Counted from the first letter of the stretch, positions 2,450-35,847 are shown. The stretch is 64,000 nucleotides of DNA from Calorimonas adulescens (GCF_008274215.1 NZ_VTPS01000006.1:62001-126000), one strand, 5' to 3'. Program-made: numbers and translations. Notes: generated by a model not told the origin, from the sequence alone.

Positions 2450-2524
2450 GGCTTTTGATAAAGGACAAGAGAACAACATTTAAGTTGTTTTCTAAATAAA
2501 ATTAATTAGATGGAGGTGCACTTT

Positions 2525-3850: not shown

Positions 3851-4725
3851 AAAGAAGGCAGGAAAAATTGGGTTGGCTTTTTGCCAGCCCATACCTCTTA
3901 TATAGTTTAATATTTTTTGTAATTCCACTCTTTGGAGCGTTATTTTTATCTTTTACTAACTGGAATCTCATTTCGCCTCAATATGAGAATGTTGGCTTTT
4001 TAAACTTTGTTAAAGCTGTAAAAAGCCAAGAAGTTAGGGCTGCGTTTTTTGTGACTTATAAATTTATGGCAATGTTTGTGCCCATTGTATTAATTGGTTC
4101 TTTGGCAATTTCCCTTATTATAAACAGCTTGCCGAGGTTTAAAAGTCTGTTTTCTGTAGGATATTTTTTGCCTTACCTTGCTTCTGGCGTTGCCACCTCA
4201 ATAGTTGTAAGAGGTATTTTGTCATATAACAGTGCTTTAAATGTATGGCTGAGGAACACGTGGGATTTGAATATTGATTGGCTCGGCTCATCAACGCTTG
4301 CCCCATTGATTATTTCTGTCATGATAGCGTGGAAATTTATGGGGTATTATTCGCTCATACTGACATCAGGTTTAGAGAGTATACCTACCGAAGTATATGA
4401 AGCTGCTGCCATAGATGGTGCAACAGGTTGGGTGAGATTCTTTAAAATTACGCTGCCGCTTTTATACCCAGCCATGTTTACTGTAACTATACTGGCAGTT
4501 GGGCTTGTATTTGGTATTTTTACAGAACCGTATGTGTTGACAGGAGGGGGTCCGGGACTTTCAACAAATACCTGGCAGATGGAAATATATAACCAGGCTT
4601 TTAGTAAGCTAAACGCAGGTTATGGCTCTGCAATTGCAATTATTGATTCTGTGGTGACATTTATTACTATTTTAGTAGTTCGTAAACTATTGGAAGTTTG
4701 GGGTGAAAAATATGGTTGGGACTAA
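3847..4725 (+). CDS. ABC sugar transporter permease (MalF type)
   Basis: This 292-residue integral membrane protein has six predicted helices and the EAA loop EAAAIDGATGWVRFFKITLPLL (residues about 180-201) that contacts the ATPase. It starts in the ATGA overlap with the binding-protein gene and overlaps the next permease, so the three are co-translated. It is the MalF/UgpA-type partner. No ATPase gene is in the cluster, so a shared MsmK-type ATPase encoded elsewhere probably powers the importer, as is common in Firmicutes. Confidence 0.88.
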   Translation: MKRRQEKLGWLFASPYLLYSLIFFVIPLFGALFLSFTNWNLISPQYENVGFLNFVKAVKSQEVRAAFFVTYKFMAMFVPIVLIGSLAISLIINSLPRFKSLFSVGYFLPYLASGVATSIVVRGILSYNSALNVWLRNTWDLNIDWLGSSTLAPLIISVMIAWKFMGYYSLILTSGLESIPTEVYEAAAIDGATGWVRFFKITLPLLYPAMFTVTILAVGLVFGIFTEPYVLTGGGPGLSTNTWQMEIYNQAFSKLNAGYGSAIAIIDSVVTFITILVVRKLLEVWGEKYGWD

Positions 4726-5548
4726 AAATAAAAAATTGCAAACTGTATTATTATACACATTAGCGATTATTGTTTTGATTATAATGATGTACCCATATGT
4801 ATATATGATATTAAATTCACTTGCGCCATGGGATCAAGTTGATAGAAGAATAATACCAACAGGACTTACCTTGAAATCTTATATATGGCTTCTGTTTGGG
4901 GGAACCGATGTTATGCCGCGACCATGGCTTAGAGCTTTTGCTAATAGTATGATTGTAACTGTTTCTTCTACTTTTTTAATGATGGTCACAGCGATATTAG
5001 TAGCCTATGCCTTATCAAAATTGGTTTTTAAAGGTAAAAAAACAATAAACAATGTTATTATGTTTCAAATGTTTTATCCCTCAATTATTCTTTTAATACC
5101 TACATTTATACTAGTGAGGAAGTTGGGATTGTATGATACCTATTGGGGCATGATAATTCCAAAATCTGTAAGCTTGTGGGCAATATTTATGTATACAAAT
5201 TTTTTTAAAGCGATACCAAATGAGTTAATTGAAGCCGCAAAGATAGATGGTGCAAATGAGATAAAAATACTTTTTAAAATCGTTTTGCCAATGTCAAAAT
5301 CAATTACCACAGTTATTTTTCTGTTTTTGTTTATGGAAAGGTGGGTAGAGCTTTTATGGGATATGCTTGTTGTGCATAATCAGAACCTTCTTACTCTGAA
5401 TGTTATGCTGGCACAGATGTTTGGGCCATATGGTGCATATCCAGGTCCGATGTATGCTGCATCTGTAATTTTGACACTTCCAATACTTATTTTGTTTATA
5501 ATTTTTAGCAAGAATTTTAAAGAAGGCATACAGTTTGTCTTAAAATGA
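4712..5548 (+). CDS. ABC sugar transporter permease (MalG type)
   Basis: This 278-residue CUT1-family permease has hydrophobic helices and the EAA motif EAAKIDGANEIKILFKIVLPM (about residues 175-195). I prefer the ATG at 4712, which has GGGGTG six bases upstream; an in-frame GTG at 4703 lies within that RBS. It overlaps the end of the first permease gene. With the binding lipoprotein it forms a three-component importer lacking an adjacent ATPase. Confidence 0.88.
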   Translation: MVGTKNKKLQTVLLYTLAIIVLIIMMYPYVYMILNSLAPWDQVDRRIIPTGLTLKSYIWLLFGGTDVMPRPWLRAFANSMIVTVSSTFLMMVTAILVAYALSKLVFKGKKTINNVIMFQMFYPSIILLIPTFILVRKLGLYDTYWGMIIPKSVSLWAIFMYTNFFKAIPNELIEAAKIDGANEIKILFKIVLPMSKSITTVIFLFLFMERWVELLWDMLVVHNQNLLTLNVMLAQMFGPYGAYPGPMYAASVILTLPILILFIIFSKNFKEGIQFVLK

Positions 5549-5566
5549 TGTGACGGAGGTGGGGTT

Positions 5567-7444
5567 ATGACAAAATTTACTGATGAATTTGTAATAGGAG
5601 CTAACTACTGGCCAAGAAATCATGGTATCGAGATGTGGAAAGAGTGGAACTATGATGAGATAAAAAGTGAATTTATTGAGGCGAAAAGATTAGGTATTAA
5701 TGTAATGAGAATAAATCTTTTTTGGGAGGATTTTCAGCCAAAGCCTGATGTAATATCAGAAAAAGCGATAGAGAAATTTGATGAGCTCATTAAAATATGC
5801 CATGAAGTGGATATGAAAATTGCTCCCACTTTTTTTGTGGGGCACATGAGCGGTGAGAATTGGGATGTGCCGTGGAGAGAAGGTAGGAATATATACAGTG
5901 ATTCATTTATGTTGAGGTACCAACTTAAGCTGGTGCGATTTTTTACAGAAAGGTATAAAGACGAACCTGCTATTTTGTTTTGGGACCTTTCAAATGAGCC
6001 AGATAATTATGTAAAAGCAGAGTCAAGACATGATGCCTGGTTGTGGAACTATGTCTTATCGAATGAGATAAAAAAATACGACAAAAATCATCCCGTAACA
6101 CTTGGAATGCACCAGGCATCTCTTCTTACCGATAATAATTTTTATCCTGAAGACATGCAAGAAGGCAACGATTTTCTGTGTATGCACGCATATCCGATTT
6201 ACACAGACGCATGTATAGATCCTGTAAATTCTATAAGAAGCACTTACATAGCGCCATTCGCCTCTAAACTTACTCAGGCTATGGGCGGCAAAAAAGTGTT
6301 ACTCGAAGAATTTGGTGCAACCACCCTCATGATGTCCGAAAACATAGAAGGGGATTATTACAGGGTAGTGCTTTACAGTCTCCTTGCGAATGAATCGATA
6401 GGTGCAATAGCGTGGTGTTTTGGAGATTTTTCTGTTGGTGAAAGGCTTCCGTATAATTCCACGCCCTTTGAAACGCAATTTGGGATAACAGCAGCTGATG
6501 GCAGAGTTAAAAAAGCAGGACTTGAAATAAAAGCTTTTTCTGATTTTATAGATAAGATTGAATATAGACGGCTTAATCCCAGAAAATGTGATGCTGCAAT
6601 AATCGTTCCAGACAAATATTACAATGCGTTATTTGTGGGAGATGACTATACTCCAGAAAGAAATTTTAGAGTCCTTTTAAATAGCTTTATACTTGCAAAA
6701 GAAGCAGGTATAGACGTTGAATTGGTAAGAGCTGATGGGGACTTTAACAGGTATAAAATGCTTATCTTGCCTTCCGCTTATAGAAAAGGGCATTTAAATT
6801 ATGATCAGTGGCTTAAGGTTATGGGATTTATCAAAAATGGCGGCACTTTATATACATCATATGACGGAATATCTATAGAAGGTTTTGATGAGGTATTTGG
6901 AGTTAAAACGCAATACTCTATGGTGCCCAAAAATAAGACAGTATCAATGCATTGTGAGGAACTTGAGATTGATTTAAATTACAGGGCTCTTAAATTTAAT
7001 AAAAGGCTTTTTGTAAAACCGACAACAGGTCATGTAATTGCCGATGATGCTGAGGGACATCCAGCAGTGGTTGTAAATAGATATGGCAATGGGAAAACAA
7101 TTCTTGTCACGTATCCTATTGAACTTTATTTAAGCTATATGCCAGATGTATATAAAGCTGACAAGTCTTATTTGATCTATAGATATGCCAAGGAGTTAAG
7201 TGGAATAAGGTACGATGTAAGTGTAGACTCCCCCTATATTGAGGTTAAGGAGTTTGATTATGAAGATAAAACCCTTATAATTTTTATAAACCATGAAGAT
7301 ATGGATATAAAAAGTAAAATAAACTTAAAAGATGTGAAAGAAAACAGAAATAATGAGAGAATACAAGATTTGATTACCGGAAAGCAGATTGATTTAGAAA
7401 GTTTTACTGTAAATGCGAATGGAGCAGTTGCAATCTTAATATAA
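5567..7444 (+). CDS. GH5-like clan A glycoside hydrolase with C-terminal domains
   Basis: The protein has 625 residues. Residues about 1-330 form a clan GH-A (beta/alpha)8 barrel with the acid/base glutamate in LSNEPDNY (E144) and the likely nucleophile in VLLEEFGATT (E248). A second part (about 335-530) resembles the beta-galactosidase trimerisation fold (LILPSAYRKGHLNYDQWLKVM), followed by a short beta domain. There is no signal peptide, so it acts inside the cell on imported oligosaccharides. A strong GGAGGTGGGG RBS precedes the ATG. Between an importer and two GH130 genes it is best read as a beta-mannosidase or mannanase-like enzyme; the exact linkage is inference. Confidence 0.75.
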   Translation: MTKFTDEFVIGANYWPRNHGIEMWKEWNYDEIKSEFIEAKRLGINVMRINLFWEDFQPKPDVISEKAIEKFDELIKICHEVDMKIAPTFFVGHMSGENWDVPWREGRNIYSDSFMLRYQLKLVRFFTERYKDEPAILFWDLSNEPDNYVKAESRHDAWLWNYVLSNEIKKYDKNHPVTLGMHQASLLTDNNFYPEDMQEGNDFLCMHAYPIYTDACIDPVNSIRSTYIAPFASKLTQAMGGKKVLLEEFGATTLMMSENIEGDYYRVVLYSLLANESIGAIAWCFGDFSVGERLPYNSTPFETQFGITAADGRVKKAGLEIKAFSDFIDKIEYRRLNPRKCDAAIIVPDKYYNALFVGDDYTPERNFRVLLNSFILAKEAGIDVELVRADGDFNRYKMLILPSAYRKGHLNYDQWLKVMGFIKNGGTLYTSYDGISIEGFDEVFGVKTQYSMVPKNKTVSMHCEELEIDLNYRALKFNKRLFVKPTTGHVIADDAEGHPAVVVNRYGNGKTILVTYPIELYLSYMPDVYKADKSYLIYRYAKELSGIRYDVSVDSPYIEVKEFDYEDKTLIIFINHEDMDIKSKINLKDVKENRNNERIQDLITGKQIDLESFTVNANGAVAILI

Positions 7445-7457
7445 GGGGGGTATAAAT

Positions 7458-8366
7458 ATGTTCAGGCTGAAGAGGCTCAGTGATAATCCTGTATTGTTAC
7501 CAATAAAAGAACATGAGTGGGAGAGGGAGGCAGTTTTTAATGCGGCGGTAATTTATGAGAATAATAAATTCCATTTGTTTTACAGGGCTTCTAATAATAA
7601 GTTTATTCTAAATACAGAGAAGCCAGAAAAAAATTATAAATTTGTATCCTCAATTGGGTATGCTGTAAGCGAGGATGGTATCAATTTTAAAAGATTTGAC
7701 CAGCCTGTTTTAAAGGGAGAAACCCCACAAGAGGCGTGGGGAGTAGAGGATCCGCGAATTACAAGAATTGACAATAAGTATTATATTCTCTACACAGGTT
7801 TTGGGGGAAGGAGCTGGTTGGATTTTAGGATATGTATGGCGTGGTCCGATGATTTAAAGAATTGGGAGGGACACAGGGTAGTTCTTGATGAGTCCAATAA
7901 AGATGCGGCGCTTTTGCCCGAAAAAATAAATGGCAGGTATGTGCTTTTTCATAGAAGGATGCCTGACATTTGGGTTGCATATTCTGATGATTTGACTGTT
8001 TGGTATGATCATAGAATTATAATGTCTCCAATACCTGGTACATGGGAATCAAAAAAGATTGGTATAGCAGGGCCTCCTGTAAAAATGGAGGATGGGTGGC
8101 TTCTTATATACCACGGAGTTGATGAAAATGACGTGTATAGATTAGGAGCAGCTCTTTTGGATTTAAATGACCCGTCAAGGGTTATTGCAAGACAGAGAGA
8201 GGCTATTTTGGAGCCTGAGCTCGATTGGGAAATAAATGGGCTTGTGCCTAATGTGGTATTCAGTTGTGGCACGGTAGAGGTAAATGGTGTGTATTATGTT
8301 TATTACGGTGCGGCAGATACCGTAATTGGTGTAGCAGTCATTGAAAAAGAAAAAGTAAAATTTTAA
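7458..8366 (+). CDS. GH130 beta-mannoside phosphorylase (first copy)
   Basis: This 302-residue enzyme has the five-bladed propeller signature of family GH130. It starts MFRLKRLSDNPVLLP, has the catalytic-acid segment GVEDPRITRI (D98), the HRRMPDIW block and LIYHGVDEND, whose Arg and His residues usually bind phosphate. Their presence argues for a phosphorylase that releases alpha-mannose 1-phosphate, rather than a GH130 hydrolase. It is cytoplasmic and 13 bp downstream of the glycosidase gene. Tandem GH130 pairs are known from Thermoanaerobacter as 1,2-beta-oligomannan and beta-1,2-mannobiose phosphorylases, an attractive but unproven match. Confidence 0.88.
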   Translation: MFRLKRLSDNPVLLPIKEHEWEREAVFNAAVIYENNKFHLFYRASNNKFILNTEKPEKNYKFVSSIGYAVSEDGINFKRFDQPVLKGETPQEAWGVEDPRITRIDNKYYILYTGFGGRSWLDFRICMAWSDDLKNWEGHRVVLDESNKDAALLPEKINGRYVLFHRRMPDIWVAYSDDLTVWYDHRIIMSPIPGTWESKKIGIAGPPVKMEDGWLLIYHGVDENDVYRLGAALLDLNDPSRVIARQREAILEPELDWEINGLVPNVVFSCGTVEVNGVYYVYYGAADTVIGVAVIEKEKVKF

Positions 8367-8380
8367 GAAGGGTGGATAAA

Positions 8381-9259
8381 GTGATCAAACTGAAGAGATT
8401 ATCGGATAAGCCAGTGCTTGTTCCTAAAGACAAAGAAGGGCATGAGTGGGAAAAAGCAGCGGTTTTTAATACGGCAGCTATTTATGACAATGGTTTGTTT
8501 CACCTTATTTACAGAGCAACTGACGTGGGACCTCATGCTAAATATGGTGAATATGTCTCAAGATTGGGATATGCAGTAAGTAAAGATGGGATAAATTTTA
8601 TGAGGTTGGACAAGCCTATTTTTACTAATGAAACACCTCAGGAGGCGAAGGGGATAGAGGACCCTCGAATAGTGAAAATTGATGGTATTTATTATATGAT
8701 GTATGTAGCCTTTGGTGGTAGATTCGATGGCGATTACAGGATATGTTTGGCGACTTCTACGAATTTGATTGACTGGGAGAGACATGGCGTTGTGTTGGAT
8801 GAACCCAATAAGGACGCATCCTTGTTTCCCGAAAAGATTAACGGGAAATATGTGATGTTACATAGAAGGTATCCCAATATCTGGATAGCATTTTCTGATG
8901 ATTTAAAGAGCTGGTATGGCCATAAGCCTATAATAAAGCCTATCCCGGGAACATGGGAGAGTGCAAGAGTGGGTATTGGAGGACCGCCGGTTAAGACGAA
9001 GGATGGTTGGTTTTTAATATACCATGCAGCTGACGAGGACAATGTGTATAGGCTTGGGGTGGCTCTTCTTGACTTGGAAGACCCATCAAAGGTTATCTCA
9101 AGACAGAAAGAGCCTATCTTAGAGCCTGAGCTGGATTGGGAGAGGGAAGGGCACATTCCTAATGTTGTGTTTAGCTGTGGCAATGCGGTTAAAGGCGATA
9201 CTATTTACGTTTATTATGGCGGTGCGGATACAGTTATAGGCGGCGCAGTCCTGGTATAA
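8381..9259 (+). CDS. GH130 beta-mannoside phosphorylase (second copy)
   Basis: A 292-residue paralogue of the preceding gene, colinear over its whole length (MIKLKRLSDKPVLVP, GIEDPRIVKI with D94, HRRYPNIW, LIYHAADEDN). The GTG at 8381 is chosen because AAGAAGGGTGG ends six bases upstream and this start aligns exactly with the first copy; the GTG at 8372 is inside the RBS. The HAAD in place of HGVD and the different acceptor-side loop after residue 45 suggest a different chain-length or acceptor preference. It is the last gene of the sugar operon. Confidence 0.88.
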   Translation: MIKLKRLSDKPVLVPKDKEGHEWEKAAVFNTAAIYDNGLFHLIYRATDVGPHAKYGEYVSRLGYAVSKDGINFMRLDKPIFTNETPQEAKGIEDPRIVKIDGIYYMMYVAFGGRFDGDYRICLATSTNLIDWERHGVVLDEPNKDASLFPEKINGKYVMLHRRYPNIWIAFSDDLKSWYGHKPIIKPIPGTWESARVGIGGPPVKTKDGWFLIYHAADEDNVYRLGVALLDLEDPSKVISRQKEPILEPELDWEREGHIPNVVFSCGNAVKGDTIYVYYGGADTVIGGAVLV

Positions 9260-9405: not shown

Positions 9406-10821
9406 GTGAATGATGGAGAAACTGAACTGGGTTCTGAAAGGGAACCGTCAAGGGGCGAGATTGTAACTCAGGTAACAGACCTGGCCTGGCCAGCCCTGGT
9501 GGAGCTGCTTATGGCTACACTCTTCGGTATGGTGGATATGATGATGGTTGGCCATATTCCTGATGGACCTGTGGCTATAACGGCCATAGGACTCACCAAC
9601 CAGCCTGTGTTTATGGGCCTGGCCGCTTTTCAGGCATTTACCGTAGGCGCAACGGCAGTGGTGGCGTGGTCTGTTGGTGCAGGAAGGGCGGATGACGCTG
9701 ATAATGCAACCTTTATAACGGTTGTTTTGACATCCGTGCTTGGCGTAATTGTCAGTTTGATAGGGGTATTGCTTTCAGAAGATATATATAAGTTTATGGG
9801 TGCAGAGCCCATAGTAATAAAAGAAGGCTTGGGATATATGCAGGTGGTCATGGGTGGTATTGTATTTGAGGCTGTGTCCATGGGCATAGCAGGTATACTC
9901 AGGGGCGTTGGGGACAGCAGGACACCTATGACTGTAAACCTGTATGCCAATCTGCTCAATGTATTCGGCAACTATGTCCTGATTTTTGGGAAACTTGGCT
10001 TTCCGATGCTGGGAGTAACAGGAGCGGGCATATCAACCACACTTTCGAGGGCTGTAGCAATGGTAATCTTCCTTTATATTATGGTACGAGGTGAGAAAAC
10101 CATAAGGCTGGACTTAAAAGAGCATCACACCCTTGACAGGGAACTTACCAAAAAAATTATTACGATCAGCCTTCCAGCAGCAGGCGAGCAGCTTGTGCTG
10201 CGCGGCGGCCAGATAATGTACGCCAGGGTTGTGGCAGGTCTTGGGACTACAGTGTATGCGGCGCACCAGATTGCCATAAATATATTTGGGCTTTCATTCT
10301 GCCCCGGCCAGGCCTATGGCATGGCAGCGACGACCCTGACAGGTCAGAGCCTTGGTGCGAAGAAACCCGATATGGCGCAAAAATATACCTACGAGGCCAG
10401 GCGTCAAGGCATGTATATAGCCATAGGAATGGCCCTTATATTTGTATTCCTGGGAAGGCAGTTAGCTATGCTGTATACTTCCGACCCTGAGGTAATATCC
10501 CAATCAGCCATAGCACTTATAATAATAGCTATGGTACAACCCATGCAGTCCACCCAGTTTATATTATCAGGGTCTCTGAGAGGTGCCGGGGATACAAGGT
10601 GGCCGCTCTATTCTACCCTCATAGGTATGTGGGGATTTAGAGTTTTATTTGCTCATATATTCATAAGATACTTTGGATGGGGAATAGTAGGAGCGTGGAT
10701 AGCCACTGCATGCGACCAGACCATGCGTTCCATAGTAATCCAGTGGAGATACAGGAGCGGGCTCTGGAAACATGCGAGCATACTGGGTGAATCTAATACA
10801 TCATCTTCCACACAGGAATAA
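9406..10821 (+). CDS. MATE-family multidrug/cation efflux protein
   Basis: A 471-residue membrane protein with two MATE domains, each about six helices. Typical family segments are VDMMMVGHIPDGPVAITAIG near the start and RGVGDSRTPM and RGAGDTRWPL in the two halves. Members export drugs or metabolites in exchange for Na+ or H+. Translation starts at GTG 9406 after GAGGGGGG. It stands alone between terminator-like hairpins and carries three GGCCWGGCC motifs (9483, 9616, 10306). The substrate is unknown. Confidence 0.9.
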   Translation: MNDGETELGSEREPSRGEIVTQVTDLAWPALVELLMATLFGMVDMMMVGHIPDGPVAITAIGLTNQPVFMGLAAFQAFTVGATAVVAWSVGAGRADDADNATFITVVLTSVLGVIVSLIGVLLSEDIYKFMGAEPIVIKEGLGYMQVVMGGIVFEAVSMGIAGILRGVGDSRTPMTVNLYANLLNVFGNYVLIFGKLGFPMLGVTGAGISTTLSRAVAMVIFLYIMVRGEKTIRLDLKEHHTLDRELTKKIITISLPAAGEQLVLRGGQIMYARVVAGLGTTVYAAHQIAINIFGLSFCPGQAYGMAATTLTGQSLGAKKPDMAQKYTYEARRQGMYIAIGMALIFVFLGRQLAMLYTSDPEVISQSAIALIIIAMVQPMQSTQFILSGSLRGAGDTRWPLYSTLIGMWGFRVLFAHIFIRYFGWGIVGAWIATACDQTMRSIVIQWRYRSGLWKHASILGESNTSSSTQE

Positions 10822-12861: not shown

Positions 12862-14196
12862 CTATAGCTCTATCTTCTTCCATCCACCTTTTTTGAACCT
12901 GTATCCCATGAGCATGGCCTCTGTTAGGAACTGGAATACAGTAACGAGCCATACATATTCGATATTCTTTTTCCATACAAAGACTATCATAAATATGAGA
13001 GGTAGCCGTATAAGCCATGTGCTTATAAGCGAAACGTAGAATGGCCCCTTGGTGTCGCCTGCACCCTTTAGCGCACCGGAGAGTGTCATGGAGAGGGCCA
13101 TTGTAGGCTGCTCAAAAGCTCCTATTCTTATACACCTTGATGCAAGTTCCCTTACCTCTCCTATGTTTGTGAAGAATCCCATTATCTGATAGGGTATGGT
13201 TAAGAATAAAAGGCCGATAATGCTCATGAGAGATACAGCCTGTTTTGCTGATTCTATGGCGGCCTGCTCAGCCTTTTTCTCGTCTTTGGCCCCCAGGGCC
13301 TGGCCGACCATGGTTGAGGCGGACACAGAAAACCCGAACCCCGGCATGAATGATACGGATTCTGCGCTTACCGCTACCTGATTGGCGGCAAATGCCACAG
13401 GGCCGAGTCTGGAGAGCCATAATGAGGATATGAGCCTGCTGCCACTATCGGAAAGCTCAAATAGAGATGCGGGTATGCTCAAGGATATCAGCTTCTTTAA
13501 TATAGCATAGTCCAGGTTTATGATATTATTCATTTTCAGCCTTATGCTGCCCTTATTAAATATCAGATATCCTGTAGTTACACAGAAGGCCAGGCTTTGT
13601 GATATAGTCGTGGCAACTGCAGCACCGGCGACACCCATCCGTGGAAAACCGAAATTTCCAAAAATGAGTACATAGTCACCAAATATATTAAATAGGTCGG
13701 CTGTAAGTGTAGCTATCATGGGCACCCTGGTATTGCCGGAGCCCCTTAAAGCCGAGTTTAAGACCATGGTTGGAACCATTATTAGCCCGCCTATGGATAT
13801 GATGCGGGTGTATGTTATGCCTGGCCTTGCCACATCGGCCTGGCCTACCAGCACATTAAAAAAGTACCCCACGCTCGCATTGGTTATTGTAAGCAGAAGT
13901 GCACCTATAAATATAGAAAGAACAAAAGACTGGCCGAGTACGCGCTCCGCCCTGTCGTATTCCTCTGCCCCGCAGTACCTTGCTACCATTGCTGCAGAGC
14001 CCACGCCCACAGCCGAAAGGACAAATAAAAGTGTATATATAAGCTGGCCGCCAAGACCAACGGCGCTCAGGGCTGCAGCACTTAAGCGTCCTACCATGGC
14101 AGTGTCGAATATCCATACTGAAGTCTCCAGTACCATCTCAAAGATAGCAGGCCAGGCCAGGTTAAATACCTCTCTCCTTATCTTATCCTTACTCAT
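12862..14196 (-). CDS. MATE-family efflux protein (second)
   Basis: A 444-residue MATE transporter with segments EMVLETSVWIFDTAMVGRLS, NSALRGSGNTRVPM and SGALKGAGDTKGPF marking the two pseudo-symmetric halves. It is only distantly related to the first MATE protein and on the opposite strand. AGAGGTG lies upstream of the ATG at 14196. Three GGCCWGGCC motifs are inside (13297, 13837, 14150). The 160 bp between its stop and the Uma2 gene hold no strong signal. Confidence 0.9.
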   Translation of the reverse strand: MSKDKIRREVFNLAWPAIFEMVLETSVWIFDTAMVGRLSAAALSAVGLGGQLIYTLLFVLSAVGVGSAAMVARYCGAEEYDRAERVLGQSFVLSIFIGALLLTITNASVGYFFNVLVGQADVARPGITYTRIISIGGLIMVPTMVLNSALRGSGNTRVPMIATLTADLFNIFGDYVLIFGNFGFPRMGVAGAAVATTISQSLAFCVTTGYLIFNKGSIRLKMNNIINLDYAILKKLISLSIPASLFELSDSGSRLISSLWLSRLGPVAFAANQVAVSAESVSFMPGFGFSVSASTMVGQALGAKDEKKAEQAAIESAKQAVSLMSIIGLLFLTIPYQIMGFFTNIGEVRELASRCIRIGAFEQPTMALSMTLSGALKGAGDTKGPFYVSLISTWLIRLPLIFMIVFVWKKNIEYVWLVTVFQFLTEAMLMGYRFKKGGWKKIEL

Positions 14197-15827: not shown

Positions 15828-18800
15828 ATGGACATTCAGTACATAAGGCAGATGGAAGACCGGTTTTATAACAAGATTGATGAGGCTATGAGCGAGATAC
15901 AGGATATGGACTATATTGACACAGTGGTTGGCATTCCTTTCTATAATGAAAAGGAAACCTTGAGGAATGTAATAAAGACAGCAGAGGAAGGTCTCAAAGG
16001 CTTTCCTGACATGAAAAAACTAATAGTATGCGCTGGAGATCCTGCAGGCAGGGAGGCACTGGAGGCCATAAAAGGGATTGACTGCGAGGTACCGTGCCTC
16101 TTTTTCCTTATGGAGTCCGGTATAAATGGTAGGGGTTTCAGCATAAGGGCTATAATGGAGATAGCAAAGAGGCTGGAGGCGGATGTTATCCTTCTTGAAG
16201 CAGACCTGAAAAGGGAAGGGAAATGGGGTTTTAAGCCCTCATGGCTGAAAAGGCTTATATATCCCCTCAATGAGGGGTATGATATGGTCTTTACGAGTTT
16301 TAGAAGGCATTACTTTGAAGATACCACCGGCGACCTCTTTGTAAAGCCAATCCTTGAGGCATTGTATGGATGTCAATTGAAGGACCCCTTGAGCGGAATA
16401 TATGGAATTTCCCATGATATGGTGGAGGCATACTGCGCAGAGGCCGGGCATTGGTATGAATACACGGGTGGATACGGTATAGACCCGTGGATGGTAACCA
16501 GGGCAGTCATCTGGGACAAGAAATTATGTGAGGTGAGCCTCGGGGCGAAACTTACTCCCCCATCAACAGGAAAGAGGGCCTATGTTTTCAAAGAGGTGGC
16601 AAGGGCAATTTTTGAGTGTCTCAAGGACGATCAGGATTACTGGCTAAAATCACATATGATATTGAAGCGTCCTGACATATATGGGCTTGAAGACAGAGAC
16701 AGGCCTATGGAGATATCCTGCCGCCTCACTGACTTTGTGCAGGCGTTTCAGTCAGGGTATGAGAGGTACAGGGTTATATATGAAAAGATACTCCCTGAAG
16801 GTTTAAAAAGGCAGATCGAAGAGGTATATAGCCTTCCGTATAAAAATTTCAGGTTTAATGAGGACCTATGGGCACAGATTATATATCAGTTTTTGCAGGT
16901 CTATTGTTTTAAGAGCAATGTACCCCAGGAGGATATACTGGATGCTTTTACCATTATGTACGAAGGGCGTATAGCCGGATATATAAAACAGGTGAGAGGG
17001 TTTCGCGATTATCTTATAGATATCAAAGGAATTGATATGGATGAGCTTACCTATAAAAAGACAGGGGACTATTATGCCTGTCAGGTGGAGACTCTTCTGT
17101 CTATGAAGGAAAGCTTTGTAAAGACCTGGATAGAGAAGACCATGGAGGTACAACCGGTCATAACACCACTTGACTATCTTGAATTTGTGCCGGGCGTGCC
17201 CATTGTATTGCCCAAGGAACTGAAAGGATTGGGCGGCAGTATCATAAGGACCAGTGAGGTGTTCAGGAGGGTTGAGAAAAAATATTCTAATGATTTTTAT
17301 GATTTTGTACACAACATGTTAAAGATACCGGAGGGCTTATCTCCGTCGGATGTGTGCAATGGAGTAAAGGAATTTATGTTGCATCTTGAAGATGCTGTGA
17401 ACAAGGTATTCCCGGGGGACCTATATTCCAGCAGCGGTGTTGCGGATGTGGTGAAGGGGATATTTAATCTATTGCCTCATGGCAAGGTCCTGATAGTAAG
17501 GCCAGAGATTTTGAGGAAACTGCTCTATGAGTTCCCCCCGTTAAATCTTATGCTCCGCGTGGGCTATAAGAATGTTACTGAACTATTAAACAACATGAAC
17601 CCACGATATGCCTTGACTCTTGCCAATATAACGGAAGAGAGGCAGTATGTAGATAAGGTTACACTGTGGCTGGAGGATAACCTGAGGCCTGACAGCATGG
17701 AAGAGGTTGACATAGAACCTATCGTACTCAGCAGAGAAGTGATACCAGATATTCCAGATATGAGGGATATTACAATATTGAACAAGATAACGGGTATGAT
17801 TGCTGTGAGCAGCCTGAGCAAGGGTATGGGTGGTGAATATCCCAAACTCAGGTATTTTACTCATATTGCAAAGAATATAGTGGAGGCGGAACACTATTCA
17901 TACATATGGAAGTTATACGCCAGAGAACGCAGGGGCTTTGGCATCAAGGTGGCAAACTCTATCCTCGGGCACCACGGCAGGGACATATTTTCAGCTCACA
18001 ATATGTTCGAAAACTGGCACCAGAGGGAGATGGTGGTCAGATTTAAAAGGCTGGCAGAGGGTCTTGAGTCAAAAGGAAACAAAGATGAGGCAAAAGCCTT
18101 TTATCTAATGGCAGAGGGATATGGGCTGTCGCTTACCTTGAATGATGGGACTTTTGTACCGTGCTCGGCATGGACATGGGCCAGTTACAGTTTCAGGGGT
18201 GGCAAAGGCATACCAACCCCACTTTCCCTGTATGTTGAGAGAGATTGGTTTAACAATGACCTTTTAGTAGAGATTTATAAGGAGATGGGCTACAGGCCCG
18301 GTGAGATACTCGAGGAGGTATACCAGCTTATTGGTGAAGGTAAGGAGAGTGACGACCTTATAAACATTATACTTGGTGTGAAGCCTCATGCCGATGCGGT
18401 AATGGTACAGGACGTGGAAAACTGGCCTGCAGCCGGTTACCTTTTACGCTATGACGGCAATCCCATTTTAAAACCCCTGCCGGACCACTGGTGGGAATCC
18501 AGGTATGTGCTGAACGCTGCAACCTTACGGATAAAGGACAGGGTATATATCCTATACAGGGCATTTGGGAAGGACAGCATATCCAGGATTGGCCTGGCCA
18601 TATCCGATGGGTACAATATAGTGGAGAGGCTACCTGAACCAGTTTTCTACCCTAAAAATAGCACTGAGAAAGATGGCTGTGAGGACCCGCGCGCGGTAAT
18701 CATAAACGATAAAATATATATGATGTACACCGCCTATGATGGAGTGGTGGCGCAGGTTGCTGCCGCCTCCATAAGCATAGATGATTTTTTAAACAGGGAC

Positions 18801-19391
18801 TTTGACAGGTGGGAGAGACTTGGCCTGGCCTTTCCAAACCTCTGGGATAAGGATGCTATACTTTTCCCTGAAAAAATTAACGGCAAATATGTCATGTACC
18901 ACAGGATAGAGCCCAGTATGTGGGTCTCATACTCAGACGAACTTAAGTTTCCATGGCCCAAGGATGGGCATAAAATAATAATCGGTCCACGGTCAGGAAT
19001 GATGTGGGACTCACTGAAGATAGGTGCAGGAACCCAGCCGTTGAAGACCAGGTATGGATGGCTGCTTATATATCATGGGGTAGACGATAATCTAATATAC
19101 AGGCTGGGCGTTATACTGGTAGACTTAAAAGACCCGGGAAGGCTGCTCTATCGTTCACCAAACCCAATCCTGTCGCCAGAGAAGGAGTACGAAACAGGTG
19201 ACAGGTCTACGGCATGGGTGCCCAATGTGGTTTTCACCTGCGGCGCAGTGCCTGCCGAGGATAAGGAGATGCTGGACGCTGAAGATGAGATACTGGTATA
19301 TTATGGAGCTGCAGATACCTACATTTGTGTAGCCCATGCAAAGGTTGGCGAGTTAATACCGGAGGAGGTCAGAAAAAGGATAGACAGATAA
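15828..19391 (+). CDS. Glycosyltransferase-GH130 fusion protein, probable mannoside synthase/phosphorylase
   Basis: 1187 residues. Residues about 25-290 form a GT-A glycosyltransferase (VVGIPFYNEKETL, a metal-site candidate in LLEADLKRE, then GDLFVKPILEALYG and DPLSGIYGIS), resembling the mannosylglycerate/glucosylglycerate synthase type. About 300-860 is a mostly helical region I do not recognise. Residues about 864-1187 are a full GH130 domain with CEDPRAVII (D953 as likely acid), YHRIEPSMW and LLIYHGVDDN, so phosphate-binding residues appear kept. It starts at ATG 15828 after GAGG and lacks a signal peptide, so it is cytoplasmic. It is convergent with GDP-mannose-type genes. A protein that both adds and phosphorolyses mannosyl units is inference. 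Confidence 0.75.
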   Translation: MDIQYIRQMEDRFYNKIDEAMSEIQDMDYIDTVVGIPFYNEKETLRNVIKTAEEGLKGFPDMKKLIVCAGDPAGREALEAIKGIDCEVPCLFFLMESGINGRGFSIRAIMEIAKRLEADVILLEADLKREGKWGFKPSWLKRLIYPLNEGYDMVFTSFRRHYFEDTTGDLFVKPILEALYGCQLKDPLSGIYGISHDMVEAYCAEAGHWYEYTGGYGIDPWMVTRAVIWDKKLCEVSLGAKLTPPSTGKRAYVFKEVARAIFECLKDDQDYWLKSHMILKRPDIYGLEDRDRPMEISCRLTDFVQAFQSGYERYRVIYEKILPEGLKRQIEEVYSLPYKNFRFNEDLWAQIIYQFLQVYCFKSNVPQEDILDAFTIMYEGRIAGYIKQVRGFRDYLIDIKGIDMDELTYKKTGDYYACQVETLLSMKESFVKTWIEKTMEVQPVITPLDYLEFVPGVPIVLPKELKGLGGSIIRTSEVFRRVEKKYSNDFYDFVHNMLKIPEGLSPSDVCNGVKEFMLHLEDAVNKVFPGDLYSSSGVADVVKGIFNLLPHGKVLIVRPEILRKLLYEFPPLNLMLRVGYKNVTELLNNMNPRYALTLANITEERQYVDKVTLWLEDNLRPDSMEEVDIEPIVLSREVIPDIPDMRDITILNKITGMIAVSSLSKGMGGEYPKLRYFTHIAKNIVEAEHYSYIWKLYARERRGFGIKVANSILGHHGRDIFSAHNMFENWHQREMVVRFKRLAEGLESKGNKDEAKAFYLMAEGYGLSLTLNDGTFVPCSAWTWASYSFRGGKGIPTPLSLYVERDWFNNDLLVEIYKEMGYRPGEILEEVYQLIGEGKESDDLINIILGVKPHADAVMVQDVENWPAAGYLLRYDGNPILKPLPDHWWESRYVLNAATLRIKDRVYILYRAFGKDSISRIGLAISDGYNIVERLPEPVFYPKNSTEKDGCEDPRAVIINDKIYMMYTAYDGVVAQVAAASISIDDFLNRDFDRWERLGLAFPNLWDKDAILFPEKINGKYVMYHRIEPSMWVSYSDELKFPWPKDGHKIIIGPRSGMMWDSLKIGAGTQPLKTRYGWLLIYHGVDDNLIYRLGVILVDLKDPGRLLYRSPNPILSPEKEYETGDRSTAWVPNVVFTCGAVPAEDKEMLDAEDEILVYYGAADTYICVAHAKVGELIPEEVRKRIDR

Positions 19392-19581: not shown

Positions 19582-19602
19582 AAAGGGAGGGAACCTCCCT
19601 TT
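19582..19602. terminator. Bidirectional terminator
   Basis: AAAGGGAGG-GAA-CCTCCCTTT with A/T flanks lies between the convergent GT-GH130 and phosphohexomutase genes and overlaps the mutase stop codon. The 190 bp before it show no gene. Confidence 0.75.
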
Positions 19603-20959
19603 AAAATTTCAACGGTACAGCTTTTCTAAGTTCGTCCAGAATCTTTTCCAGGCCCTCCTCTGTCTTTGCCTCTGCCCTCAAAATCACCTCAGGACCTGTA
19701 TTGGATGCTCTGGCTAAGCACCATCCGTCGTATATATACGCCCTCACCCCGTCTACATCCACAACGGAGCACCCTTTTTCAATGAAATATCTTTTGGCGT
19801 TTTCAACTATGGTGAATTTTTCTTTGTCGTCGCTCTCTGCCCTTATCTCCGGAGTAGACACATAGGAAGGAACATCCGAGAGCAGTTCTGACAGCTTTTT
19901 GCCGCTTTTTGAAATTATCCTCAAGAGCCTGCCTGCCGAATAAAGCGCATCATCAAACCCATAGTACTCGTCAGCAAAGAACATATGTCCTGACATCTCA
20001 CCGGTGAAAGGCGAATCCAGTTCCCGCATCTTCGCCTTTATAAGGGAATGTCCTGTCTTATAGAAGAACGGCTTCCCTCCAAGGCGTTTAATTTCGTCTA
20101 CAAGCGCTTCTGAGCACTTTACCTCCACAATACAGTCTATACCCGGATATTTTGGCAGGATCTCCCTCCAAAAGAGGGACATCATAGTATCGCCCCATAT
20201 TATGTTTCCCTTATCGTCCACAACTCCTATCCGGTCGCCGTCTCCGTCAAAACCTATACCCAGGTCTGCTCCTGTCTTTAAGACAACGTCCCTCAATGCC
20301 TTGAGGTTTTCTTCTTTTACAGGGTCAGGGAAATGATTTGGGAAATTGGGGTCGGATTCAGAGTATATGGGTATAACATTGCATCCCCATAGTTCCAGTA
20401 CCTGGGGGCCTATAATAGAAGTAGTGCCGTTTCCGCAGTCAACTGCCACCTTGAGTTTTCTTTCCAGTTTTATCTTTTCCTTCAGCATATCAGCATAGCC
20501 GAATATGGGATAGGAATAGCTTATATCTCCCCTGGGGGCATCCATAAAATCGTCGTTTTCAATCATGCGGCAGATATCCTGCAGGTCATCGCCATACAGG
20601 GTAGCCGGGCCAAAGCATACTTTAAACCCGTTATACTGAGGAGGGTTATGACTTGCTGTTATCATCAGTCCGGGGTTTACACTGTAAAGTATTCTGGAAT
20701 AATAAAACATTGGGGTTGTTAAGAGCCCCACATTCAATACATTTGTGCCCGTACTTAAGAGACCATCTATAACTGCATCCATGAGGTCTAATGAAGAAGC
20801 CCTGTTGTCGTGCCCAACAAGGCATACATCCTCATTTCTCCTCTTGAGGTATGTCCCAAAGGCCTTTCCTATAAGATATGCTGTATTCCTGTTCAGTTCT
20901 TCAGGGACAACTCCCCTTATATCATACTGCCGGAATATAGTAGGGTTTATCTTTGCCAT
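19601..20959 (-). CDS. Phosphomannomutase/phosphoglucomutase
   Basis: 452 residues of the alpha-D-phosphohexomutase superfamily. It has the phosphoserine loop TASHNPPQYNGFK (about residues 98-110), the metal loop GFDGDGDRIG (about 238-247), the sugar-binding GEMSGHMFF (about 318-326) and the phosphate-binding RASNTGPEVILRAE near the C-terminus. It interconverts mannose 6-P (or glucose 6-P) and the 1-phosphate. A GGAGGAGG RBS precedes ATG 20959. It is the last gene of the nucleotidyltransferase operon and overlaps the preceding gene by 38 bp. It could also take up mannose 1-phosphate made by GH130 phosphorylases. Confidence 0.92.
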   Translation of the reverse strand: MAKINPTIFRQYDIRGVVPEELNRNTAYLIGKAFGTYLKRRNEDVCLVGHDNRASSLDLMDAVIDGLLSTGTNVLNVGLLTTPMFYYSRILYSVNPGLMITASHNPPQYNGFKVCFGPATLYGDDLQDICRMIENDDFMDAPRGDISYSYPIFGYADMLKEKIKLERKLKVAVDCGNGTTSIIGPQVLELWGCNVIPIYSESDPNFPNHFPDPVKEENLKALRDVVLKTGADLGIGFDGDGDRIGVVDDKGNIIWGDTMMSLFWREILPKYPGIDCIVEVKCSEALVDEIKRLGGKPFFYKTGHSLIKAKMRELDSPFTGEMSGHMFFADEYYGFDDALYSAGRLLRIISKSGKKLSELLSDVPSYVSTPEIRAESDDKEKFTIVENAKRYFIEKGCSVVDVDGVRAYIYDGWCLARASNTGPEVILRAEAKTEEGLEKILDELRKAVPLKF

Positions 20960-21983
20960 GTATTACCTCCTCCCTTTCTTTTAGTATCGCATTCATCATT
21001 TGATAAGTCAAGAGGAAGCTTACCAGCGCCTCTGCACCCTGATTAGGATTCAAGCCTTCTGGCACCAGGGCGTCATGACACCCTCCCGAATTTTCATTAT
21101 ATAGATTTAATCTGTTTATGTTTTTCCCCCAGTACCACTCATAGGAAAGGATTGCTTTTGACAGATACTCTCTCTTTCCCGTGGCAGTGTATCCTTCGAG
21201 GCAGGCCAAGGTAATTGATGCCGCATCCACAGGCTGCTGGTCAAATGGTGGTATAACACCGTTTCTCTGCCACCACCCCCTATTGCCTACAATGGACAGG
21301 TACCCGTTTTTAAAAAGCGAATCTGTTAAAAACCCCAGGGACTCCTCAGCAACATTAAGCGAGTTCCTGTCGCTGGAGATTTTATAGTAAGAGAATAAGG
21401 AGTGGGGCAATACTGCATTGCAGTAAGTAAGCCATTCCTCAAACCATTTCCAGGTATCGGTCCTGTTATCTGCATAGTTTTTCTTCAGATAGGAGGCCAT
21501 GTCGCCTGCCACCTTATAGAGGTTGTCATAGCTATACCCGTTTGTTATCAAATATATCAGGCCGATAAGTGAGTATGCTACAGCCCTCAAGGACTTCATC
21601 CTTGATATTACAGGCAATGCCCTGCTTATTATGTCTTTTGACTGTTTCTTTATGCTATCATGAGTATCGTCACTGCATAGGACATAACAACACGCCAGAA
21701 ATGCACGCCCTATGCTGTCTTCAGAATCAATGGTTGGAAGAAATGTATCAGCTACCTTGAGGTTGATAAAACTTCCGTCCGGACGCTGAGCACTTTTTAT
21801 AAAGTCCAGATATGTTTTGGCGAATCCTGCATCATCGTCCTCCATATTAATAGCAACAAGGAGAGCCCTGGCGTTATCATCCACTGTATACCCGCTCTCC
21901 TTTAAAGGTTCATCATGCCTTGAAAACTGTATTATACCTGTTTTATCAGTCATCCTTCTAAGGTGCCTGTAAGACACTCCCAT
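20922..21983 (-). CDS. (alpha/alpha)6-type carbohydrate-active protein, function unknown
   Basis: About 353 residues without signal peptide. Repeated helix-rich units with conserved acidic/aromatic motifs (SGYTVDDNARAL, RPDGSFINL, DTWKWFEEWLTYCNAVLPHSL, DQQPVDAASITL, GGCHDAL, NQGAEALVSFL) fit an (alpha/alpha)6 barrel glycosidase, phosphorylase or epimerase fold. I do not recognise a named family. The ATG at 21983 is preferred (GAGGGGG seven bases upstream); a GTG at 22001 is also open. It overlaps the GT4 gene by 26 bp, showing tight coupling. Possible roles are trimming or priming of the mannose-containing product. Confidence 0.6.
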   Translation of the reverse strand: MGVSYRHLRRMTDKTGIIQFSRHDEPLKESGYTVDDNARALLVAINMEDDDAGFAKTYLDFIKSAQRPDGSFINLKVADTFLPTIDSEDSIGRAFLACCYVLCSDDTHDSIKKQSKDIISRALPVISRMKSLRAVAYSLIGLIYLITNGYSYDNLYKVAGDMASYLKKNYADNRTDTWKWFEEWLTYCNAVLPHSLFSYYKISSDRNSLNVAEESLGFLTDSLFKNGYLSIVGNRGWWQRNGVIPPFDQQPVDAASITLACLEGYTATGKREYLSKAILSYEWYWGKNINRLNLYNENSGGCHDALVPEGLNPNQGAEALVSFLLTYQMMNAILKEREEVIHGKDKPYYIPAV

Positions 21984-23133
21984 ACCCATTCCCCCTCGCA
22001 CTGTTTTGAATTACGAGTCCCATAAGATTTATATACTGTTTTGCCACACTGGTCCATGTCATGGTTTTGCCAAGCTTGGACGCCCTTTCCTCCAGGCTGT
22101 GTTTTAGCGTCGGATTATCTATTATGTTCTCTATAAGTGTGGCAAGTTCCATATAGTTATTGCTGCTCTTTGCTATAAGGCCCCTGCCATTACCAAGTAT
22201 CTCCAGGGCATACTCGTAAGGGGTTGACACTATAGCTCTTCCACAACCCACAGCATAGGTTAATGTACCGCTAACGGCCTGGTTTTTATCAGGATAAGGG
22301 GTCATATACACATCTGTCATATACAGATAGTCACCAAGTTCGTCCAGGGATAGATAGTGATTGACAAATTGGACATTATCTGTCAGGTGCATATGCTCAA
22401 CCAGGTCTATCAGCGACTCTCTGTATGTCTCACCGAACTTTTTAACCAGGGAAGGATGGGTTTCACCCAGTACAAGATATAGTATTTCGGGATGTCTTGA
22501 TGCCACTTCCCCTATAGCTTTGATGCCATTTTCGATACCCTTGCCAGGCCCTATAAGACCGAAAGTGGAAACTATAGTCCTTTTGCTGTATCCATACATC
22601 GATTTTAACTGCTCTCTGTTTTTCTGCTTAAAACTGGGAACACCGTGGGGTATTACATAAATTTTGTCTTTAGGGACTCCATAGATATCCTCCAAGAGGC
22701 TTGCTGACCTTCCAGTCATACAGGCAACAGCGGCTGCTGCGCTGCCGAGTCCCCTGAGTATCCATTTCTGTCTAAAGTTAGGGGATGGCAGAACAGTATG
22801 TGTGGTGAGGATAAAAGGCTTTCTCAGGTGGGCAGCAAAGTCCAGGACATATTTCCCATCAAGCCCACCAAATATCCCATACTCGTGTTCCACTATTACC
22901 ACATCTATAAAGGAATCGTTCACGAAATGAGCAGCCTTGATGAACTCATCCCTCTCATCTTGATTAATTTCGAATATAACCTCAGGTGGGTAGTTATAAC
23001 TGGCTCCGCTATCTGTGATGGCAAGTAGTTTCACATTTTTGCCCATCTTGACGAAATTGTCTCTCAAGTCCTTTGAAAATGATGCAATGCCGCATTCTCT
23101 TGGTGGATAAGTGCTTAAAATGGCTATATTCAT
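21958..23133 (-). CDS. GT4-family glycosyltransferase
   Basis: 391 residues with the GT-B layout: N-terminal MNIAILSTYPPRECGIASFSKDL acceptor domain, then VSTFGLIGPGKGIENGIKAI and the donor-binding PYPDKNQAVSGTLTYAVGCGRAIVSTPYEYALEIL, the E-x7-E-type region of retaining GT4 enzymes. The ATG at 23133 follows AAGGAAGGG; a longer frame starting at TTG 23160 overlaps the upstream stop. Cytoplasmic or peripheral. Encoded between the nucleotidyltransferase and the (alpha/alpha)6 protein, it probably uses the nucleotide sugar made by its neighbour. Confidence 0.88.
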   Translation of the reverse strand: MNIAILSTYPPRECGIASFSKDLRDNFVKMGKNVKLLAITDSGASYNYPPEVIFEINQDERDEFIKAAHFVNDSFIDVVIVEHEYGIFGGLDGKYVLDFAAHLRKPFILTTHTVLPSPNFRQKWILRGLGSAAAAVACMTGRSASLLEDIYGVPKDKIYVIPHGVPSFKQKNREQLKSMYGYSKRTIVSTFGLIGPGKGIENGIKAIGEVASRHPEILYLVLGETHPSLVKKFGETYRESLIDLVEHMHLTDNVQFVNHYLSLDELGDYLYMTDVYMTPYPDKNQAVSGTLTYAVGCGRAIVSTPYEYALEILGNGRGLIAKSSNNYMELATLIENIIDNPTLKHSLEERASKLGKTMTWTSVAKQYINLMGLVIQNSARGNGYGSVLQAP

Positions 23134-23149
23134 TTGCATCCCTTCCTTT

Positions 23150-24172
23150 TTAATACGCAATCACACCATAAGACACGTCTTTGTTATCTCCAATGGTACA
23201 GTTGATACCTATGATGGTATTGCTCAATTTTGAACCACTGCCTATCTTACACCCTTCCCATATGATCGAATTCCTTATATAGCTACCCGGCCCGATCTCA
23301 ATATTGTTGCCGATAACAGCCCTGGGACCTATTATCACATCATTGCCTATATAACAGTTATCCCCAATCGCTATTGGGGGAATCAATTTTGCTGTGGGGC
23401 TTATATAGGAGTTTTTACCTATAACTATGCGGTTTTTATAATCCATCTCTATAAATGGATAAGTAAACAGACCATCCAGTATGCTGTTGTGCAGCTCCAA
23501 ATACTTATGCGGCGTACCTATGTCAATCCAGTAGTTGTTATTTTTATATGCGTACATCTTAACGCCAGCCGATAATAGGCCTGGATAAACCTCTTTTTCT
23601 ACAGAAACCTCACGTCCCGCAGGTATAAAATCAAGGACATCCCTCTCAAACACGTATATACCAGCATTGATAAAGTTTGTAGTTATCTCTTCAGGCCTTG
23701 GTTTTTCCTTAAATGCAGTTATCCGGCCATCATTGTCCGTTTCCACAAGACCGTATGCACTTGGATTATCAACCCTGGTAAGGGCAATGGTCACCCTTGC
23801 TCCTGATGCCATATGATAGTCTATCAGATCTCTAAGGTTGATGTCGGTAATTATATCGGAGTTGAATATCAGGAATGTATCATCCAAATACCTCTCTGCA
23901 TTCTTTATAGCTCCGCCTGTACCCAGCGGGCTCTCCTCAATACAATAGTATATCTTTACACCAAATCTACTGCCGTCTTTAAAGTAATTCATGATCTGTT
24001 CAGGCTGATAGCACAGACTCATGACTATCTCATCTATGCCATAGCCTTTAATATAGTTTATGGTTCTCTCCAAAAGAGGCTTGTTGAGTACTGGGACCAT
24101 TGGCTTTGGTATGGAATGAGTAAGAGGATACAGCCTGGTACCCTTTCCTCCGGCAAGTAAGAGTGCCTTCAT
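23150..24172 (-). CDS. Sugar-1-phosphate nucleotidyltransferase (probable mannose-1-P guanylyltransferase)
   Basis: 340 residues. An N-terminal nucleotidyltransferase domain (about 1-230: MKALLLAGGKGTRLYPLTHS, KPMVPVLNKPLLERTI, FNSDII) is joined to C-terminal hexapeptide repeats forming a left-handed beta-helix (about 250-340: IGDNCYIGNDVIIGPRAVIG). This is the two-domain GMPP/GlmU-like layout used for GDP-mannose or related nucleotide sugars. ATG 24172 follows AAGGAGGTGG, and a longer frame to 24268 lacks an RBS. It is first in an operon with a GT4 enzyme and phosphohexomutase, supporting GDP-mannose, but UDP- or dTDP-sugar cannot be excluded. Confidence 0.82.
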   Translation of the reverse strand: MKALLLAGGKGTRLYPLTHSIPKPMVPVLNKPLLERTINYIKGYGIDEIVMSLCYQPEQIMNYFKDGSRFGVKIYYCIEESPLGTGGAIKNAERYLDDTFLIFNSDIITDINLRDLIDYHMASGARVTIALTRVDNPSAYGLVETDNDGRITAFKEKPRPEEITTNFINAGIYVFERDVLDFIPAGREVSVEKEVYPGLLSAGVKMYAYKNNNYWIDIGTPHKYLELHNSILDGLFTYPFIEMDYKNRIVIGKNSYISPTAKLIPPIAIGDNCYIGNDVIIGPRAVIGNNIEIGPGSYIRNSIIWEGCKIGSGSKLSNTIIGINCTIGDNKDVSYGVIAY

Positions 24173-24542
24173 TAAACCACCTCCTTGAAAAATTATCCAA
24201 TTTACAACTCTATTGTATACATGAGTGTGTCTGTTTGTCAAACCTGATTTTTGTCCCTTTTTGTACAAAAATGCGTAATATTATTGTATATATCATTGTG
24301 ATATATATTTTTTTAAACAAATTAGTATATATCATTTAAATATACTGTTGTTTACTAATAATCTACGTGCACACTTATTATTATATTTAATGTCCCTGTT
24401 CTTTATACCTTATAACAGGACTCTTTGCTATTCAGTTAAATTGTCTTGTAATCAAAATTTAATATTCCGTTAACCATTTTTTAACCGAATTACCATCAGG
24501 CCTGTGGTATAATCAAATTACAATTGGCAGAAAGGGGTCTGT
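24173..24542. promoter_or_regulatory. Divergent promoter region with 11-bp-spaced TTAA repeats
   Basis: Leftward, TTGACA-18-TACAAT (24241-24212) serves the nucleotidyltransferase operon. Rightward, TATAAT at 24508-24513 lacks a good -35 but is preceded by TTAATA (24459), TTAACC (24470) and TTAACC (24481), each 11 bp apart. That spacing and hexamer resemble Gram-positive PhoP boxes, so the deacetylase gene may be activated by a PhoP-like regulator. The middle is very AT-rich without other signals. Confidence 0.5.
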
Positions 24543-34554: not shown

Positions 34555-34670
34555 AGAAAATACCTTCAGGGCAGGGTGAAATTCCCGACCGGCGGTAAAG
34601 CCCGCGAGCCGTAAGGCAGATCCGTTGTAACTACGGGGCCGACAGTATAGTCTGGATGGAAGAAGGGTAG
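34555..34670 (+). ncRNA. FMN riboswitch (RFN element)
   Basis: The conserved RFN blocks are present in order: CCTTCAGGGCAGGGTGAAAT, TCCCGACCGGCGGTA, AGCCCGCGAGCC, GGCAGATCCG and GGCCGACAGTATAGTCTGGA ending TGGAAGAAGG. It precedes ribD and a terminator, giving FMN-dependent premature termination of the rib operon. Confidence 0.97.
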
Positions 34671-35841: not shown

Positions 35842-35847
35842 TTGGCT

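Follow-up and report, generated by a model that had tools for sequence, protein, structure and literature searches.

A GT78-like and GH130 fusion protein of Calorimonas adulescens points to a possible mannoside cycle in heat-loving anaerobes

We analysed a stretch of 64,000 nucleotides from Calorimonas adulescens (GCF_008274215.1, NZ_VTPS01000006.1:62001-126000), hereafter the window, in which positions 15828-19391 on the plus strand form a single open reading frame (ORF) of 1187 amino acids (aa). The ORF begins with an ATG and has a plausible GTGAGG-like ribosome-binding site about 9 bases 5' of its start. A preliminary description, made from the DNA alone, had proposed that one polypeptide at this locus carries an N-terminal GT-A glycosyltransferase and a C-terminal GH130 phosphorylase-type domain, and this architecture was borne out by Pfam and by structure alignment. 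The parts of the fusion are the following.

15828..19391, plus strand: whole fusion, composed of a GT78-like part, a domain of unknown family and a GH130 domain; 1187 aa; based on the ORF and its orthologues
15909..16637, plus strand: GT-A domain of GT78 type, residues 28-270; based on VIA-align to 2y4k, residue tables and hhalign to stand-alone homologues
16638..17123, plus strand: helical domain resembling the C-terminal domain of mannosylglycerate synthase, residues 271-432
17124..18431, plus strand: middle domain with no family or PDB match, residues 433-868; found only in the fusion among 398 genomes
18432..19388, plus strand: GH130 domain, residues 869-1187; based on PF04041 (E 2.9e-56), conservation in 41/41 orthologues and the tree

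Full-length orthologues with 38-84% identity were present in Tepidanaerobacter, Thermosediminibacter, Fervidicola, Thermovorax and further relatives, and every segment was under purifying selection, with ratios of nonsynonymous to synonymous differences (pN/pS) against the related locus L024 of 0.08-0.24, lowest in GH130 (0.08) and highest in the GT78 helical part (0.24). A chance or frame artefact is excluded by these two observations. The GH130 domain was the most constrained segment, with a mean conservation of 0.80 against 0.60 for the GT-A domain. Across 398 genomes of the phylum, residues 1-860 were matched in 53, five of which held a stand-alone glycosyltransferase only or gave a marginal match. 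The profile of the middle domain matched 48 of the 398; apart from short or contig-end fragments, the matched frames spanned about 1,000 aa or more, and the architecture is thus not peculiar to this locus. The same profile search of the 398 genomes gave no instance of the middle domain as a protein by itself, and plasmids gave no match to it. A further scan, of 84,980 genomes, relied on exact peptide patterns, which reach close relatives only.

The GH130 domain

The C-terminal domain was recognised by Pfam PF04041 over residues 891-1177, with 191 bits against a cut-off of 26 bits, and its nearest solved sequences were 7fip (E 1.8e-57) and 9fj8, both of which are characterised beta-1,2-mannoside phosphorylases of Thermoanaerobacter. 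Work on BT3780 and the GH130 phosphorylases has described the catalytic Asp, a Lys tied to the beta-1,2 linkage, and glutamates of the mannosidase at positions where phosphorylases are basic (PMC4599007). Nine residues of the fusion (N896, R911, E952, D953, K1008, R1026, K1064, H1083 and D1163) were invariant across all 41 fused orthologues. The catalytic Asp and the residues that contact mannose at subsite -1 were kept, D953, N896, R911 and D1163 being equivalent to D142, N74, R89 and D363 of BT3780. K1008 is equivalent by motif spacing to K199 of BT3780, a position occupied by Lys in Teth514_1788 and Teth514_1789 and by Arg in the beta-1,4 enzyme BF0772, and R1026, K1064 and H1083 aligned with basic residues of characterised phosphorylases at positions where the mannosidase BT3780 has carboxylates. 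The correspondence with BT3780 was drawn through motifs and through alignment to the Teth514 enzymes and BF0772. The full-length AlphaFold2 model was poor over GH130, where its predicted local distance difference test score (pLDDT) was often below 50, and the active site was therefore read from sequence.

Because the catalytic Asp, K1008 and the basic phosphate-site residues are invariant, the domain is predicted, with high confidence, to be active as a phosphorylase, and the linkage on which it acts is probably beta-1,2. The preliminary description had read this domain as complete, with its catalytic Asp and apparent phosphate-binding residues, and had named the loss of such residues as evidence to the contrary; no fused orthologue had lost any of the nine. 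A hydrolase (mannosidase) was also considered and was ruled out by the basic phosphate-site residues together with the absence of a visible signal peptide, as judged by eye.

The phylogeny of the domain, which had been proposed as a check, placed the fused GH130 domains in a group of their own, distant from the characterised enzymes and separate from the clades of Teth514_1788 and Teth514_1789, although the branch of the fused group was supported at only 58/84. Two stand-alone GH130 proteins encoded elsewhere in the window fell in the Teth514_1788 and Teth514_1789 clades in the same tree. The separate clades rule out that the fused domain is a recent copy of this pair, and the single origin of the fused group is moderately supported. 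Against the NCBIfam model of the beta-1,2-mannobiose phosphorylase equivalog (NF052550), the fusion scored 253.8 bits, which is under the cut-off of 450.

Teth514_1788 and Teth514_1789 of Thermoanaerobacter sp. X-514 (PDB 9fj8 and 7fip; PMC4264767) share the GH130 fold and active-site residues with the fusion, whereas they are single-domain proteins of about 300 aa that have neither a GT78-like nor a middle domain, belong to separate clades and differ from it in their active-site loops. The GH130 'mannoside synthase' Uhgb_MS (9eqq, 9erg, 9erh) shares the GH130 domain (E 2e-34), but it is likewise single-domain and is more distant from the GH130 domain of the fusion than the Teth514 enzymes are. 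The fusion would be classed with the GH130 phosphorylases as a variant, rather than as a GT108 enzyme or an active GT78 enzyme.

The GT78-derived half and the middle domain

The N-terminal half gave a sub-threshold Pfam GT2 match (PF00535, residues 34-54, E 0.1), too weak by itself for a GT-A call, and weak NCBIfam GpgS/GT81 matches were obtained in 9 of 15 members. Structure prediction, another check that had been proposed, assigned this half to the GT78 fold. The full-length AlphaFold2 model mostly reached a pLDDT of 70-94 over residues ~10-440, and its residues 32-432 aligned in VIA-align 2 with mannosylglycerate synthase (2y4k/2bo4) at a Z of 33.5, with 353 of 380 residues aligned at 2.9 Å, compared with a Z of about 20 and 225 aligned residues for GT81. 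The whole GT78 fold, including its C-terminal helical domain, is thereby confirmed; since the structural alignment spans residues 32-432, residues 271-432 are that C-terminal domain. The preliminary description had left about 560 residues as unrecognised helical sequence, and this view holds for residues 433-868, about 435 residues without a match, and no longer for residues 271-432.

The active site of this half has been altered. In GpgS and mannosylglycerate synthase (MgS), the metal is held by the second Asp of the DxD motif and a His (H258 and H217, respectively), the ribose is bound by a Glu, and the first Asp of the motif (MgS D100, GpgS D134) joins a Lys and a Glu or Asp around the donor sugar (PMC2581804). 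The metal His was absent at its position in 41/41 fused orthologues, with T243 in the window. The first Asp of the motif was never Asp in the same 41, being E in 26, A in eight, K in two, V, T, S and P in one each, and a gap in one incomplete sequence. The motif in the window reads E124-A-D126, E41 is retained, and the PLSG loop is largely retained in the fused proteins. The stand-alone homologues (n=4) keep D-S-D and the His, and their profile aligned with the fused one over 381 columns (hhalign probability 99.9). Thus, the fusion shares the whole fold of the Rhodothermus marinus GT78 mannosylglycerate synthase (2bo4, 2y4k) over residues 32-432 but differs from it in having 15% identity and in lacking the metal His and the first DxD Asp; it shares the GT-A core of the GT81 enzyme GpgS (PMC2581804), whereas the equivalents of D134 and H258 are missing.

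Canonical metal-dependent transfer is unlikely because the metal His and the first DxD Asp are lost in all 41, and the GT half is fairly probably not a canonical GDP-mannose transferase. Of the earlier claim of an N-terminal GT-A transferase, the fold stood, and the making of a mannoside by this half was not supported. The same losses render doubtful an enzyme that makes and breaks a mannoside in one chain. In addition, GT78 is a retaining, alpha-forming family and GH130 acts on beta-mannosides, so a canonical GT78 product would not be a GH130 substrate.

Four loci, L070 (2913-4199), L071, L072 and L073, encode a GT78/GT81-like transferase that stands alone, has D-S-D and the His intact and lies next to a LacI-type regulator; a sugar-binding protein also adjoined the transferase in L070, L072 and L073.

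Across 14 orthologues, Pfam gave no convincing match to the middle domain, residues 433-868. Its model had no Foldseek match below 0.001 in the PDB, and the best VIA Z was 6.6, to 3o0y. As the mean pLDDT of this model was 69, the fold is regarded as undecided rather than new. Our guess is that the domain may be a linker or a glycan-handling module.

Genes around the fusion

Four genes on the opposite strand lie next to the fusion in the window.

19601..20959, minus strand: phosphomannomutase/phosphoglucomutase; PgmG 469 bits (under the 600-bit cut-off), PGM_PMM domains I-IV
20922..22001, minus strand: conserved GT4 partner of 359 aa without a family match; perhaps an alpha/alpha toroid, judged by eye only
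21958..23160, minus strand: GT4 glycosyltransferase; PF00534 E 1.4e-12, PF13439 E 4.9e-10
23150..24268, minus strand: mannose-1-phosphate guanylyltransferase-like nucleotidyltransferase; NF052502 E 3.7e-91 (under cut-off), PF00483 E 1.4e-56

In nine relatives (L026, L028, L029, L030, L033-L037), GT4, the partner and the fusion follow one another in this order on the same strand, separated by small gaps, and lineages at a greater distance also have ManC (TIGR01479-type) and phosphomannomutase beside these three genes. Within about 8 kb of 46 fusion loci (L085-L131; L024-L037 were left out, as they repeat some of the same contigs), GT4 was found in 29, the partner in 29, phosphomannomutase in 18 and a GDP-mannose-pyrophosphorylase-type nucleotidyltransferase in 18, with at least one of these in 33. 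The presence of phosphomannomutase, GDP-mannose pyrophosphorylase and GT4 genes beside the fusion fits the making and releasing of a mannoside, in agreement with the store-and-release setting that had been suggested for the protein.

The partner, of about 340 aa, had no Pfam, NCBIfam or clear PDB match and accompanied GT4 in genomes with a stand-alone GH130 as well as in those with the fused one; GT4 and the partner form one protein in L085 (10845-13286) and L086 (5984-8287). It is likely an undescribed GT4 partner.

The fusion was the only GH130 in 22 of 35 fusion genomes, and for this reason the salvage of imported mannan is disfavoured as its main role. A glycogen-synthase type Glyco_transf_5 domain (E <1e-30) was detected in 10 of the 35 fusion genomes versus 21 of 40 others, counts in which related genomes are not independent; the difference is suggestive of the fusion replacing glycogen.

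Chiku et al. 2014 reported GH130 phosphorylases of a single domain, encoded in a cluster of GDP-mannose genes, and proposed a role in salvage, with no bacterial source of beta-1,2-mannan identified at that time (PMC4264767). The Teth514 cluster, with its mannose-1-phosphate guanylyltransferase, GT4 and hypothetical gene, is like the setting of the fusion, and a homologous set was seen in L092. Relative to that study, both the fused architecture and the finding that it is often the only GH130 of its genome appear new, at least to us, and no description of a GT78-GH130 fusion was found in open-access PMC text.

About 6.5 kb upstream of the fusion, positions 1370-9259 hold a LacI regulator, a sugar ATP-binding cassette (ABC) transporter, a GH42-like hydrolase and the two stand-alone GH130 genes.

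7458..8366, plus strand: stand-alone GH130, orthologue of Teth514_1789 (beta-1,2-mannobiose phosphorylase); based on tree and alignment; not part of the fusion
8372..9259, plus strand: stand-alone GH130, orthologue of Teth514_1788 (1,2-beta-oligomannan phosphorylase); based on NF052550 (517 bits against 450) and tree; not part of the fusion

This operon showed 85-92% identity to a locus in L092, which belongs to the same taxonomic order and is probably from Thermoanaerobacterium by kinship and gene content, whereas between these two genomes GT4, the partner and the nucleotidyltransferase were only 36-50% identical. This difference supports that the operon probably arrived by horizontal transfer and lies outside the ancestral system.

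Interpretation and further observations

In the explanation that we favour, with moderate confidence, the fusion is a cytosolic beta-mannoside phosphorylase in a three-part protein, with an endogenous substrate made by GT4 and a store-and-release cycle spread over the operon. The GH130 domain would reversibly phosphorolyse a beta-mannoside, with beta-1,2 as the most likely linkage, and so yield mannose 1-phosphate. The substrate is likely endogenous; as the gene neighbourhood suggests, the co-encoded GT4 and partner would synthesise it intracellularly from GDP-mannose. Mannose 1-phosphate could then return to GDP-mannose via GDP-mannose pyrophosphorylase or enter glycolysis via phosphomannomutase. 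The GT78-derived half would most likely be a non-catalytic domain that holds a glycan acceptor or senses a sugar nucleotide, and the fusion would carry out the release step, possibly also extension. The store-and-release idea suits the operon better than the single protein, and the fusion suggests that heat-loving anaerobes have a pathway, so far undescribed, for storing or recycling mannose.

Several observations weigh against this explanation. D126, the second Asp of the DxD motif, is retained in 37/41 and the ribose-binding Glu (E41) in 39/41, and the GT segment is under purifying selection, so that this half may bind nucleotides and retain some catalysis. The replacements in the window are conservative (E124, R102 and D219 for D, K and D/E). 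The beta-1,2 assignment draws on one lysine and family resemblance, and a different acceptor is possible for a GH130 group so far from the characterised enzymes. In 13 of the 46 loci none of the four partner genes was present in the fetched stretch, in some cases because the contig ends.

The kept residues, the largely kept PLSG loop, the complete GT78 fold, the selection on the GT segment and the adjacent GDP-mannose genes would all suit a bifunctional synthase-phosphorylase, in which the GT78-derived domain transfers mannose without a metal or with other ligands and GH130 reverses or extends the product. We consider this unlikely, given that the metal His is lost throughout, that the first DxD Asp is replaced by A, K, V, T, S or P in 14 orthologues, that a retaining, alpha-forming family is paired with a domain that cleaves beta-mannosides, and that a separate GT4 stands beside the fusion in most loci. 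A somewhat less probable form of the idea is a single-chain bacterial mannogen, in which the GT78 half, by non-canonical and metal-independent use of GDP-mannose, synthesises or primes a mannan, the growing chain is held by the middle domain, and GH130 extends or phosphorolyses it, giving an intracellular beta-1,2-mannan reserve in thermophilic anaerobes. Such a mannan is a carbohydrate reserve of Leishmania, and the preliminary description had drawn an analogy with the GT108 enzymes of its mannogen metabolism. The concept of beta-1,2-mannan turnover is shared, as is the five-bladed propeller that GT108 has in common with GH130, but GT108 houses both activities in one propeller (PMC8950772), whereas the fusion joins what is by sequence an ordinary GH130 to an unrelated GT-A half. 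GT108 (6q50) was absent among the phmmer matches of the fusion to PDB sequences at E up to 1.

Mannosyl osmolytes are plausible in thermophile-type anaerobes, to which most of the named hosts belong according to their record titles, and the fold matches of the N-terminal half (GT78, and more weakly GT81) are to a family of osmolyte synthases. The GT78-like half might accordingly bind a mannosylglycerate-type glycoside or glycerate while GH130 releases or adds mannose, which would amount to compatible-solute turnover and not polymer storage. We regard this as improbable: the nearest relatives of the GH130 domain act on mannobiose and oligomannan, known mannosylglycerate is alpha-linked, and genes of a glycerate pathway were not noticed in the vicinity. 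Envelope glycans are often the business of GT4 transferases, GH130 enzymes can run in either direction and the PDB contains a GH130 'mannoside synthase' (9eqq), so that GT4, the partner and the fusion could assemble or trim a surface glycan carrying beta-mannose, in which GH130 would add the cap from mannose 1-phosphate. This is still less probable: reading the conserved loci by eye revealed no consistent genes for a lipid carrier, a flippase or a polymerase, and the fusion starts, also by eye, without a signal peptide or membrane segment. Least probable of all, and in our view very unlikely, is that the fusion only degrades imported beta-mannooligosaccharides, like the role proposed for Teth514_1788/1789. 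The transporter and hydrolase operon with its two stand-alone GH130 genes would favour this, but that operon has a separate history, most fusion genomes have no other GH130, and no sugar transporter homologous to that of the window is linked to the fusion in relatives.

Because the conserved fusion has genes of GDP-mannose synthesis beside it and is frequently the sole GH130 of a genome, an endogenous bacterial mannoside cycle becomes directly testable in cultured Thermosediminibacter, Fervidicola, Thermovorax and Tepidanaerobacter. The protein would, in addition, give a clear example of how a glycosyltransferase domain stayed under selection after losing its canonical metal site and was joined to a domain of unknown fold.

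Other features were also observed in the window. Two MATE-type genes (9406-10821 and 12862-14196), the second named by eye only, lie within 5 kb of sequence on opposite strands. Positions 34558-38180 hold a flavin mononucleotide (FMN) riboswitch and then genes whose homologues directly follow the fusion in L026, L027, L028 and L037, and a T-box leader is present at 39154-39356 (Rfam RF00230, 121 bits).

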